In this document: piece after piece, positions 8,405 to 17,356 of the stretch
Layout: each line of letters opens with the position of its first letter
How positions within the stretch are numbered: position 1 is the stretch's first letter
Assembly (NCBI GenBank): GCA_947476195.1
Contig: CANJPT010000040.1
Coordinates: forward strand, 1 to 35,722
DNA from: Lewinellaceae bacterium
GTDB lineage: Bacteria > Bacteroidota > Bacteroidia > Chitinophagales > Saprospiraceae
Reading direction: 5' to 3'
DNA: 35,722 nucleotides
Position numbers and translations under genes: made by a program
Notes under the pieces: generated by a model
Databases searched by the model: none
Told to the model about the DNA's origin: nothing
The model's input: the letters and a program-made list of their open reading frames with translations, nothing else

Positions 8405-8471
8405 AATGTGATCATAACACACATTATAATTTTTTGATCTTTTTGAATACATTCAACACATTGACCACATT
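8405..8471 (+). promoter_or_regulatory. Stem-loop of the shared AATGTGGTYAAT family before rpmC
   Basis: AATGTGATCA at 8405-8414 can pair with TGACCACATT at 8462-8471 (9 of 10 positions). The second arm belongs to a 9-bp period array (units from 8449, 8458, 8467 and 8476) and ends 14 nt before the rpmC ATG. The same 18-base stretch around CACATTGACCACATTA recurs before rplX. Confidence 0.6.
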
Positions 8472-8485
8472 ATCTAATTTAGACA

Positions 8486-8746
8486 ATGGCTAAGGAAATT
8501 TTGATCCTAGTTGATATGAGTGAAGATGAACTGCGCAGCCAACTTGCCAGTGCTGAAAACGAATATCAACAAATGAAGTTCGACCATGCGGCTAAAGGTA
8601 TTGCCAATCCCATGGAAATCCGTGAATTGCGTCGCGGTGTTGCTCGCATTCTCACAGAAGGACGTCGCCGCGAAATAGCAGCAATGACACCTGATGAACT
8701 GGCAATGCGTAGTAAACTTCGCGCACGCCGCCGCAAAAATCGTTAA
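8486..8746 (+). CDS. rpmC: 50S ribosomal protein L29 (uL29), long form
   Basis: 86 residues, longer than the usual 60-70. L29 sits at the tunnel exit beside L23. The recognisable core is the helical hairpin SEDELRSQLASAENEYQQMKF followed by ANPMEIRELRRGVARILT. A basic extension ends RSKLRARRRKNR. The first ten residues (MAKEILILVD) are not typical, and an in-frame ATG at 8516 (MSEDEL) would give a more usual N-terminus. The 8486 start is kept because the repeat leader ends right before it. Confidence 0.88.
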   Translation: MAKEILILVDMSEDELRSQLASAENEYQQMKFDHAAKGIANPMEIRELRRGVARILTEGRRREIAAMTPDELAMRSKLRARRRKNR

Positions 8747-8820
8747 ATTTGAAGATCCACAACTAGTGGATAGACAGATTTGAACATTACAACAAAGCTC
8801 AACTAATTACATCTCGATAG

Positions 8821-9084
8821 ATGGAAGCAGTAGAAAGAAAACTTCGCAAACAAAAGACAGGGGTCGTTGTTTCCACTAAAATGGACAAGACCGTGTCTGT
8901 TAAAGTGGAACGCCGCCTGATGCACCCGCTTTATGGTAAATTCGTAAAGCGCTCCAAGAAGTTCTTCGCTCATGATGAGGAGAACACTTGTAAAATGGGC
9001 GACTTGGTGCGCATCATGGAGACTCGTCCGCTTAGCAAAATGAAGCGCTGGCGTTTGGTCGAAGTCCTTGAAAGAGCAAAATGA
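8821..9084 (+). CDS. rpsQ: 30S ribosomal protein S17 (uS17)
   Basis: 87 residues, normal for S17, an early 16S-binding OB-fold protein. Conserved blocks are [44 protein letters not shown] and [25 protein letters not shown]. The 74-nt gap before it contains a small hairpin (ATCCAC with GTGGAT, about 8756-8773) but none of the short-period repeats seen in other spacers. Confidence 0.97.
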
Positions 9085-9119
9085 TTTTCAAGTATGTGGT
9101 ATAAGTTATTCAATTCTTA

Positions 9120-9154
9120 AACTTAATAACTTGTAACTCATAACTCATAACTAA
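9120..9154 (+). repeat. 7-bp tandem repeat directly before rplN
   Basis: Units of 7 bp with consensus TAACTCA lie at 9127-9133, 9134-9140, 9141-9147 and 9148-9154, with a looser unit at 9120. AAGTTATT at about 9102-9109, closer to the rpsQ stop, is complementary to AATAACTT at 9125-9132. The rplN ATG is at 9163, after an A-run. Confidence 0.7.
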
Positions 9155-9162
9155 AAAAAGTC

Positions 9163-9531
9163 ATGATTCAGCAAGAGTCTCGTTTGAATGTGGCCGATAA
9201 CTCCGGCGCGAAAGAAGTGCTTTGCATTCGTGTGCTGGGTCACACTCGCCAGCGCTACGCCGGTGTAGGCGACAAGATTGTCGTAACTGTAAAAGATGCT
9301 ACCTCTAGTGGTGGAATCAAAAAGGGTACGGTATCGAAAGCAGTTATTGTCCGCACCCGTAAGGAAATCCGCCGTAAAGATGGATCTTACATCCGCTTTG
9401 ACGACAATGCAGTGGTACTGCTCAATGCTTCTGATGAGCCACGTGGTACTCGTATATTTGGCCCAGTGGCTCGCGAATTACGCGATAAGGACTATATGCG
9501 TATTGTCTCGCTAGCACCTGAAGTGTTGTAA
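9163..9531 (+). CDS. rplN: 50S ribosomal protein L14 (uL14)
   Basis: 122 residues, exactly the usual length. L14 lies on the subunit interface and binds the silencing factor RsfS where present. Signatures are [19 protein letters not shown] at the start, [41 protein letters not shown] in the middle and [21 protein letters not shown] at about 98. Codon use is like its neighbours and no anomaly is visible. Confidence 0.98.
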
Positions 9532-9547
9532 AATGAGGTCAGTTTTT

Positions 9548-9609
9548 AATGTGGTTAATATATCACATTTGTATAACTAGTTGACCAAATTATTCACATT
9601 GACCACATT
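9548..9609 (+). promoter_or_regulatory. Stem-loop of the shared AATGTGGTYAAT family before rplX
   Basis: AATGTGGTTAAT at 9548-9559, 17 nt after the rplN stop, pairs over all 12 positions (one G-U) with ATTGACCACATT at 9598-9609. The second arm ends 15 nt before the rplX ATG. The right side continues in a 9-bp register (units from 9587, 9596, 9605 and 9614). Confidence 0.65.
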
Positions 9610-9624
9610 AGCTAATTCATTAAA

Positions 9625-9972
9625 ATGGCTACGAAGAAAAATAACGTAAAACGCTTTGCCCCTAAACTCCACATCCGTAAGGGTGACAAAGTAGTTGTCC
9701 TTTCAGGCGACGACAAGGGGAAGAAAGGAGAGGTGCTACAAGTGTTCCCCGATAAAAATCGCGCTATCGTGGAAGGCGTACGGATCGTGAAAAAGCACGT
9801 GAAGGCTACGCAAACGGAGTCTGGCGGAATTCAAGAAATGGAAGCAAGTATTCATGTTTCCAATCTTGGCCATACAGATCCAATAAGCGGCGAAGCAACG
9901 CGTATCGGTCGCCGTGAAGAAAACGGTGTACGTGTACGTTTTTCTAAAAAATCTGGTAACGTCATCTTGTAA
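9625..9972 (+). CDS. rplX: 50S ribosomal protein L24 (uL24)
   Basis: 115 residues. L24 is an assembly initiator that binds 23S rRNA near the tunnel exit. The KOW motif is visible at about residues 18-45: [20 protein letters not shown] followed by [17 protein letters not shown]. Later blocks [14 protein letters not shown] and [14 protein letters not shown] fit the family. Its stop overlaps the rplE start by one base (TAATG at 9970-9974), a translational-coupling arrangement. Confidence 0.97.
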
Positions 9973-15943: not shown

Positions 15944-16162
15944 ATGGCAAAAGAAGATATTATCAAGCAAGATGGCGTGGTTTCTGAAGCACTATCCAAC
16001 GCGAATTTCAAAGTTCAACTGGAGAATGGCCACGTAATCTTAGCAACAATTTCAGGCAAAATGCGGATGCACTATATCCGAATCTTGCCTGGCGACAAAG
16101 TATCTGTTGAGATGTCACCTTATGATCTTTCACGAGGACGCATTATATACCGTTACAAATAA
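15944..16162 (+). CDS. infA: Translation initiation factor IF-1
   Basis: 72 residues, exactly the standard length. IF-1 binds the A site of the small subunit during initiation and helps IF-2 and IF-3. The single OB-fold is visible: [60 protein letters not shown] sequence and the end RGRIIYRYK. It lies between map and rpmJ as is usual in the phylum. No odd features. Confidence 0.98.
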
Positions 16163-16216
16163 ATTTGCCACCGAACTAGGTTAACTACTTTTTGCAAACA
16201 GACAATTCGACACGAT

Positions 16217-16333
16217 ATGAAAGTCAGACCGTCCATCAAAAAGCGTTCTGTTGATTGTAAGATTGTTCGCCGTAAAGGCAAACTTTATGTAATCAACAAA
16301 AAGAACCCAAAATTCAAACAACGTCAAGGCTAA
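16217..16333 (+). CDS. rpmJ: 50S ribosomal protein L36 (bL36), zinc-free form
   Basis: 38 residues, the standard L36 length. It reads [20 protein letters not shown] and ends NPKFKQRQG. Zinc-binding L36 has three Cys and one His. Here the first Cys is Ser, the third is Asn and the His is Phe, leaving one Cys (residue 14). It is therefore a C-minus form that cannot hold zinc in the usual way. It starts 54 nt after infA and 85 nt before rpsM, the normal place. L36 binds 23S rRNA late in assembly. Confidence 0.96.
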
Positions 16334-16347
16334 TTGGCTGCTGATGT

Positions 16348-16415
16348 GTTGATTTGCTTACTTGAGTATGGTACTCACAAATCAACAAATCATCTGTTCA
16401 ACAAATCAATAAAGA
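16348..16415 (+). repeat. 8-bp repeat and stem-loop between rpmJ and rpsM
   Basis: GTTGATTTG at 16348-16356 is the exact complement of CAAATCAAC at 16378-16386, enclosing a second small stem GAGTA (16364-16368) with TACTC (16372-16376). The right arm opens an 8-bp period array (units from 16376, 16384, 16392, 16400 and 16408, consensus AACAAATC) ending 3 nt before the rpsM ATG at 16419. Confidence 0.7.
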
Positions 16416-16418
16416 AAT

Positions 16419-16796
16419 ATGGCACGTATTGCAGGTGTGGATTTGCCCCGCCACAAAAGAGGAATTATTAGCCTCACCTATATCTACGGCATTGGGCCGT
16501 CTTCTGCTAAAGCTATTCTTGAAAAGGCTGGCATCAGTGAAGACACCAAGACTGATCAGTGGACCGACGAGAATATCAAGGCCATTTCCAGATTACTCGC
16601 AGATGAGTATAAGACGGAAGGTCAACTTCGTTCGGAGGTGCAGATGAATATCAAGCGTCTTATGGACATTGGATGTTATAGAGGCCTGCGTCACCGTAAG
16701 GGACTTCCCCTTCGTGGCCAGCGCACACGGACAAACGCACGTACCCGTAAGGGCAAACGTAAGACGGTTGCCGGAAAGAAGAAAGTTACAAAGTAA
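16419..16796 (+). CDS. rpsM: 30S ribosomal protein S13 (uS13)
   Basis: 125 residues, normal length. S13 forms bridges between the subunits and contacts the P-site tRNA. It begins [26 protein letters not shown], has the helix-turn region ILEKAGI and the C-terminal block [31 protein letters not shown] with a basic end. It opens the alpha-operon part of the cluster. Confidence 0.98.
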
Positions 16797-16797
16797 A

Positions 16798-16882
16798 AAT
16801 GTGGCCAATGTGGTTAATGTGTACTATTCAAGCACATTCGCTACAGTCATCACATTGACAGCATTATAAAATTGACCACATT
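16798..16882 (+). promoter_or_regulatory. Stem-loop of the shared AATGTGGTYAAT family before rpsK
   Basis: Three 9-bp units beginning AATGTG lie at 16798, 16807 and 16816, directly after the rpsM stop (16794-16796). The 12-mer AATGTGGTTAAT at 16807-16818 pairs with ATTGACCACATT at 16871-16882. The right side also keeps a 9-bp register (from 16852). The second arm ends 8 nt before the rpsK ATG. Confidence 0.7.
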
Positions 16883-16890
16883 TTCATACA

Positions 16891-17283
16891 ATGGCAAAAG
16901 GAGCAGCAAAAAAGGTTGTTAAGCGTAAAGTAAAGATCACCCCTGAGGGTATGGTTTTTATTCGTGCGAGCTTTAATAACATCATCATTTCCATCACCAA
17001 TAAGCAAGGTGAAGTGGTATCCTGGGCATCAGCTGGTAAAGCGGGATTCCGTGGCTCAAAAAAGAACACACCGTACGCAGCTCAGGTGGCTGCCAGCGAT
17101 GCGGCTAAGACAGCTCATGAAGCAGGTATTCGATCCGCTGAAGTGTTTGTGAAAGGACCTGGTTCTGGTCGTGAGTCTGCTATCCGTGCCATAGACCAAT
17201 CAGGCATTAAAGTGCTCGTTATCAACGATGTAACTCCACTGCCGCACAATGGTTGCCGCCCTCCAAAGCGTCGCCGCGTATAA
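16891..17283 (+). CDS. rpsK: 30S ribosomal protein S11 (uS11)
   Basis: 130 residues, normal length. S11 lies on the platform near the E-site mRNA. Signatures are [50 protein letters not shown] and the end [17 protein letters not shown] with [16 protein letters not shown]. Both flanking spacers carry stem-loops of the same repeat family. Confidence 0.98.
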
Positions 17284-17293
17284 ATTAATGAGA

Positions 17294-17356
17294 TCAATGT
17301 GACCAATGTGTCACATTGGGCCCCATTGACCACATTTTAAATAATTGACCACATTC
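17294..17356 (+). promoter_or_regulatory. Stem-loop of the shared AATGTGGTYAAT family before rpsD
   Basis: AATGTGACCAAT at 17296-17307, 12 nt after the rpsK stop, is complementary apart from two positions to ATTGACCACATT, which occurs twice (17325-17336 and 17344-17355). CCAATGTG at 17303-17310 also pairs perfectly with CACATTGG at 17312-17319 in a tight hairpin. The last arm ends 8 nt before the rpsD ATG. Confidence 0.7.

Follow-up and report, generated by a model that had tools for sequence, protein, structure and literature searches.

Mirror-oriented word arrays between stop and start codons in ribosomal operons and other spacers of a Lewinellaceae genome

A 12-nucleotide (nt) word, ATTGACCACATT, recurs in the ribosomal protein operon spacers of a Lewinellaceae bacterium (assembly GCA_947476195.1, contig CANJPT010000040.1; Bacteroidota), which we analyzed over a window of 35,722 nt, the whole stretch of DNA under study. 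An initial annotation had proposed that this word and its reverse complement form one 12-base stem in four spacers, each time joining a stop codon to the next start codon. The word is genuine and occurs much more often than chance would allow, yet it does not represent a single ribosomal stem. What was noted in the four ribosomal spacers is the local form of a more widespread type of repeat that has seldom been described, in which short words often stand head to tail before start codons and recur as mirror copies after stop codons. The explanation that we consider most likely, and to which we give about an even chance, is that these are word arrays generated at the level of DNA and filtered by translation at starts. 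We rank this explanation above selected hairpins that couple the translation of neighboring genes.

The four spacers lie on the forward strand within the S10-spc-alpha run of ribosomal protein genes, and Pfam identifies the genes around them as those for L16, L29, L14, L24, S13, S11, and S4. Exact copies of ATTGACCACATT precede the downstream gene in all four (8460-8471, 9598-9609, 16871-16882, and 17344-17355), at 14 nt from the ATG of rpmC, 15 nt from that of rplX, and 8 nt from those of rpsK and rpsD, just as had been annotated. The annotated first arms fare unevenly, in that those at 9548 and 16807 are exact, but those at 8405 (AATGTGATCATA) and 17296 (AATGTGACCAAT) carry three and two mismatches, respectively. 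In the 104-nt rplP-rpmC spacer (8382-8485), the words AATGGGTCG and AATGTGATC follow the stop codon and CACATTGACCACATT precedes rpmC (lag-9 z-score 4.17), and the 93-nt rplN-rplX spacer (9532-9624) has its arms at 9548-9559 and 9598-9609. The 94-nt rpsM-rpsK spacer (16797-16890) has three copies of AATGTG (16798, 16807, and 16816) followed by CACATT/GACCACATT words that end with the last arm, and the 80-nt rpsK-rpsD spacer (17284-17363) reads AATGAGATC AATGTGACC AATGTG and then ATTGACCACATT twice (17325 and 17344). The reported 9-nt period holds in all four spacers (lag-9 z-scores of 3.5 to 4.4). Over the entire window, the 12-mer has ten matches with at most one mismatch, compared with 0.57 expected, and none of 100 shuffles reaches ten. 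Copies at 16798, 17325, and 35495/35560 are additions to those annotated earlier.

Among the stems as drawn, only that before rplX is part of the predicted minimum-energy fold. In the predicted folds of the rpmC and rpsK spacers, the second arm pairs with a copy of the word other than the one named, and the rpsD spacer is predicted to form a local hairpin that leaves its last arm unpaired. The folds are somewhat more stable than those of shuffled sequences (z-scores of -2.27, -2.40, -4.14, and -1.44), and no Rfam family matches the window at its gathering score. Overall, the four-spacer observation is partly confirmed.

Throughout the 4.76-Mb draft genome, ATTGACCACATT is found in 129 copies (64 + 65), and the reversed word, used as a control, is found in none. 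The matches are non-random and concentrate at starts and stops, in keeping with the link to start codons that had been anticipated. However, the layout is special neither to ribosomal spacers nor to this 12-mer, given the number of copies genome-wide and the other words that share the same layout. Positions are available for 100 of the 129 places, and genes were called with a dicodon script that, in the window, recovers the ribosomal genes used here and misses rpmJ. In stretches centered on hits, 77 of 85 exact copies fall in gaps between genes (60 tandem, 12 divergent, and 5 convergent), 6 are intragenic, and 2 lie at stretch ends. At starts, 41 copies are oriented outward and 6 inward; at stops, 21 are outward and 9 inward. 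Read on the sense strand, CCACATT stands before starts, the nearest copy often being 5-10 nt away, and AATGTGG stands after stops.

After the removal of duplicates, 53 gaps contain an exact copy, and 38 of these are tandem: 8 have AATGTGG alone, 19 have CCACATT alone, and 11 have both, with AATGTGG first in all 11. Allowing one mismatch yields 47 tandem gaps (5, 18, and 24, respectively), and the order is kept in 24 of 24. Many gaps are one-armed (27 of 38 with exact copies and 23 of 47 with one mismatch allowed), which does not support the annotated interpretation. Within tandem gaps, 11 of the 45 exact CCACATT copies end 5-10 nt upstream of the start and 37 lie within 60 nt of it, and 6 of the 22 AATGTGG copies begin 0-5 nt past the stop and 18 lie within 26 nt. 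Divergent gaps with a copy carry one 6-10 nt before a start in 8 of 10 cases. Furthermore, among 100 listed places in each of three genomes, every cluster with the word on both strands (35 of 35) has all AATGTGG copies before CCACATT; as these genomes are related, the count may include one spacer more than once. Steps between copies on the same strand at these places are mainly 9 and 17-20 nt. One pre-start array in the same-genus genome G023 (C1, approximately 22365-22430; L285-L289) has 11 places with at most one mismatch in 9-nt steps, and the opposite arm is absent.

We also scanned gaps of 50-250 nt without reference to any word, using two samples of this genome and one of a relative (G009); the first own-genome sample includes the window and is therefore not fully unbiased. 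Of the gaps scanned, 286 are tandem, 65 divergent, and 79 convergent. Inverted repeats (z > 2) occur in 80, 14, and 55 of these, respectively, a period of 6-10 nt (z > 2.5) in 58, 3, and 19, and both signals together in 24, 2, and 15. Without the 20 tandem gaps of the window, inverted repeats are present in 72 of 266 tandem gaps, a period in 49 of 266, and both in 18. Coding segments of equal length (n = 170, first own-genome sample) show inverted repeats in 2.9% and a period in 5.9% of cases. Tandem and divergent gaps do not differ in inverted repeats (p = 0.35) or in the joint signal (p = 0.19). The words vary by spacer (TAACTCA, GTTCATAG, CAAATCAC, CCGTGAAC, and others), with periods of 7, 8, or 9 nt. 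Where both signals are present (24 tandem gaps), arms begin a median of 5 nt past the stop and enclose a median loop of 28.5 nt; the medians are 23 nt and 8.5 nt in 36 tandem gaps whose inverted repeat is not accompanied by a period (lag z < 1.5).

Relatives carry the word in very uneven numbers. At least one exact copy is present in 43 of 60 relatives, and the nearest named ones (L081-L091, of 31 loci) are metagenome-assembled genomes of Saprospirales, Chitinophagales, or Bacteroidota. Among 36 same-genus genomes, G010, G023, G022, and G033 have 304, 271, 40, and 31 copies, respectively, and the others have at most 9. Of 296 genomes from the phylum, 3 contain a 15-letter form of the word, namely this one and two others with a single copy each. 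Ribosomal spacers were cut out via tblastn from 30 assemblies comprising this genome, 23 others of the genus, and 6 named relatives, with five named loci dropped as duplicates. In this set (which includes L152-L174), 19 of 25 spacers have median lengths of 40-140 nt. In 13 assemblies from other families of the order (L175-L187), the medians of most spacers are 3-33 nt, so that ribosomal operon spacers in the genus are longer by a factor of several; the map-infA spacer shows no such difference in length. Orthologous spacers differ between species in their word, and the layout often stays. For example, an alignment of the rpsQ-rplN spacer from 17 of the 29 assemblies that have it, chosen for length, keeps a 7-nt AAC step in register in most of the 17 while the remaining letters change, and related assemblies have other 7-nt words in this spacer. 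Other orthologues have spacers of 20-32 nt with a pre-start word at most.

The two ends of a spacer also match each other across species, a result in favor of the annotated arms. For the 335 spacers in the 30 assemblies that measure 50 nt or more, the predicted duplex between cognate ends has an energy of -13.82 kcal/mol, compared with -10.25 kcal/mol for ends of the same gene from other assemblies and -9.67 kcal/mol for ends of other spacers from the same assembly. Cognate ends are favored in 68% of 334 spacers (Wilcoxon p = 1.4e-21), although these statistics include close, non-independent species pairs. The effect amounts to -8.9 for rpsQ-rplN, -5.9 for rplP-rpmC, -5.6 for rplN-rplX, -5.3 for rpsM-rpsK, and -4.2 for rpsK-rpsD; by rank it is weak for rpmC-rpsQ and rpsK-rpsD. 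No such effect is seen for rpsC-rplP and rpsD-rpoA or in 35 testable outgroup spacers (p = 0.13).

The composition of the start side of the spacers would fit a translation filter. Before starts, ATG is far rarer than CAT, with 33 versus 418 occurrences in the 335 long ribosomal spacers, 5 versus 180 in 184 short ribosomal spacers (counted over the whole spacer), and 8 versus 90 in the periodic tandem gaps, of which there are 58. The counts after stops are 208 versus 201 and 60 versus 34. Underrepresentation of AUG near starts, together with reduced structure and A-motifs, is described for Flavobacterium johnsoniae and Bacteroidia in a report that cites Baez 2019 (PMC8710568), and a loss of Shine-Dalgarno recognition is described in another (PMC9976891). 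The present organism probably belongs to a lineage without Shine-Dalgarno pairing. The CCACATT orientation is found before starts because AUG is avoided there.

Given these observations, we favor a model in which the arrays of 7-, 8-, or 9-nt words that fill spacers would grow by slippage within an arm. Template switching during replication, which can make and repair hairpins (PMC8794818), might write the mirror copies seen at the opposite spacer end, and arrays might now and then be copied between spacers. Slippage, inverted copying, and copying between spacers would therefore give each genome its own dominant words, and a translation filter would then fix the orientation on the start side. 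If, as we assume, the ribosomes of this host resemble those of Bacteroidia in working without Shine-Dalgarno pairing, the pre-start stretch would need to be AUG-free and G-poor, and up to approximately 5-10 nt before the ATG the CAT-type orientation would be kept. Once transcribed, both spacer ends could pair as a hairpin running from stop to start. Such hairpins might couple neighboring genes or keep the leader open, or they may be a mere by-product.

The initial annotation argued that local slippage alone does not place the same unit in four spacers, and we concur; slippage combined with inverted copying and copying between spacers would suffice. Among 831 change clusters between sister spacers, 35 are exact inverted copies of some other part of the spacer and 51 are direct copies, compared with 87 of 8310 (1.0%) and 64 of 8310 (0.8%) in randomized controls. 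Moreover, four spacers on different contigs (L072, L125, L127, and L146) have in common a 16-nt core, TTGGGCTCGRCCRGGC, after AATGTGG-type words. Several observations nonetheless weigh against DNA-level arrays with a filter at starts. The excess of inverted copies is also expected from selection on pairing. The core common to the four spacers shows no amplification elsewhere in the genus, as 40 other genomes give 31 matches with at most one mismatch (one exact) versus 21 for the reversed control, and no copying enzyme or event was seen in our analysis. Periodic words are rarer in divergent than in tandem gaps (p = 0.0017), to which a purely mutational process should be indifferent unless promoters exclude words. 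Finally, outward polarity at stops is kept in 5 of 5 cases in convergent gaps of this genome, and avoidance of AUG does not explain this post-stop polarity.

The chief rival holds that stop-to-start hairpins are selected to couple translation, with the upstream ribosome melting the post-stop arm and freeing the pre-start arm. This corresponds to the RNA unfolding model, which its source treats as established in general (PMC12548453), and we regard its application here as rather doubtful. It would fit the short distance from stop to arm in gaps with both signals, the pre-start copies close to the ATG, and the matching of spacer ends across complete word replacement. It is also consistent with an excess of pairs changed on both sides, of which there are 73 versus 31 expected if the changes were independent, with 42 kept and 31 broken; these counts come from 11 species pairs, some of them not independent of one another, with the structure predicted for one species of each pair. 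However, paired sites diverge nearly as much as unpaired ones (11.7% versus 13.4%), and single-side changes break 248 pairs and keep 100. G.T mismatches between arms are not favored over A.C (78 versus 137 in ribosomal spacers; 49 versus 44 in own-genome tandem gaps), and this ratio, itself shifted by the base composition of the arms, gives no sign of wobble tolerance on the sense strand. Sense-strand folds are weaker than antisense folds, by a gap smaller than that in shuffled spacers, and the folding energies of spacers are lower than those of shuffles. RNAalifold assigns 0 pairs to the 17-row rpsQ-rplN alignment. Several orthologues have spacers of 20-32 nt, too short for a stem, and a published screen correlated structure just past the stop with weaker coupling (PMC12548453). 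Compensating changes in relatives are seen as double changes, but not as a wobble signature, a clear difference in divergence, or a consensus fold. Together, the pair-level tests tend to disfavor strong selection on an RNA stem, and base-pair-level evidence for such selection is weak or absent. Overall, the annotated interpretation is partly supported. The idea that folding bridges long spacers was rejected, as the folded-out stop-to-start length equals that of shuffles. We set aside a neutral-mutation control (240 directed comparisons, mean z of -0.85 favoring structure), since its assumption is violated when both sequences have diverged from a common ancestor and the control is biased toward constraint. 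A bolder version, which we think unlikely, is that many long ribosomal-operon spacers of this lineage are stop-to-start hairpins free in sequence and kept in mirror symmetry, with species exchanging entire words in both arms simultaneously, forming a chain of sequence-independent couplers that would be written and rewritten by template switching.

Other accounts are less probable. Transcription terminators, or hairpins after stops that stabilize the 3′ ends of mRNAs, would explain why inverted repeats are common in convergent gaps, where the words follow stops too. But the four stems lie inside one ribosomal gene run, loops are long where both signals occur, and lone pre-start arms form no hairpins. 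A scan of positions 8200-17700 for terminators with loops of 3-8 nt also found no forward-strand site in the four spacers and 9 sites in total versus 9.5 in shuffled sequence, leaving this explanation improbable. We would be similarly surprised by a mobile palindrome of the repetitive extragenic palindromic (REP) or miniature inverted-repeat transposable element type, moved by a transposase, even though it would fit the patchy amplification among close relatives and the core common to four spacers. No fixed element length or ends are seen, and both word and period vary between spacers. The genome has seven matches to Y1_Tnp (PF01797), which may be genes of REP-associated tyrosine transposases (RAYT) or of IS200/IS605. 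Within at most 1.5 kb on each side of these seven loci, there are no copies of the word with 0-1 mismatches, and two loci have copies with two mismatches; RAYT-driven REP was set aside on this basis. Most improbable of all is a site for a sequence-specific RNA- or DNA-binding protein, since the recurrence of one 12-mer near starts and stops is what such a site would predict, but unrelated words take the same layout in neighboring spacers and related species.

Additional spacers of the window also carry words. On the forward strand, the start codon that closes the rplB-rpsS spacer (6106-6208) is preceded by an 8-nt word contained in CCAAATACACAAATCA (lag-8 z-score 9.56), the rpsS-rplV spacer (6476-6550) shares the layout of the four spacers with an 8-nt word in the form AATTCGAT... 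/ ...TTATCACA (inverted-repeat z-score 3.2, lag-8 z-score 3.87), and the rpsQ-rplN spacer (9085-9162) has the 7-nt word TAACTCA in the same mirror layout. The TAACTCA before rplN is one base off the published TAACTGA heptamer. Upstream of a parB-like gene on the reverse strand (34585-35487), the region 35488-35590 contains AAAGTGGTCAAT (35495-35506) and ATTGACCACATT (35560-35571), and the nearest copy, with one mismatch, lies 7 nt before the start. Separately, the infA-rpsM gap (16163-16418) holds a small unlisted open reading frame that resembles rpmJ (L36) by eye.

The STRR heptamers of cyanobacteria are heptamer tandem repeats, and we know of no mirror layout or link to stop or start codons for them. 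We regard the layout described here as a variation on short word repeats already known from intergenic regions, the closest being the heptamer-type (TAACTGA) repeat. That repeat is reported as direct repeats in Beggiatoaceae, Cyanobacteria, and some Bacteroidetes, with a proposed post-transcriptional role and one indirect repeat in the main genome (PMC4679880). As in that report, the present words are short, run head to tail, lie mostly several nt before starts, and occur in ribosomal protein operons as well. Indeed, head-to-tail words oriented toward starts are what we find, with spacings of 9 and 17-20 nt and with 7- and 8-nt words. Unlike the single heptamer in direct repeats described there, the present repeats involve many words, periods of 7-9 nt, mirror copies after stops, and word replacement between species. 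Like REP and REPIN sequences with their RAYT, they are palindromic, intergenic, high in copy number, and patchy; unlike them, they have no word copies with 0-1 mismatches at Y1_Tnp loci and vary in period and length. REP palindromes are further reported to bear a tag of the GTAG/CGTC type at one end (PMC3733652). They also resemble translational-coupling hairpins as described in PMC12548453 in that a stem may form from a stop codon to the start codon that follows, but the stems here are predicted ones without clear signals of selection at the level of pairs. Among the entries listed in our searches of one open-access library, none deals with spacers of mirrored words in Bacteroidota.

In these spacers, inverted arrays within essential operons appear to evolve in concert, and they provide a natural system in which to test template switching as a source of hairpins. 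Because strong word-level "covariation" occurs here with weak selection at the level of pairs, they also caution against the inference that covariation proves an RNA to be functional. Should the hairpins be active, they would constitute a coupling device for bacteria that lack Shine-Dalgarno pairing.

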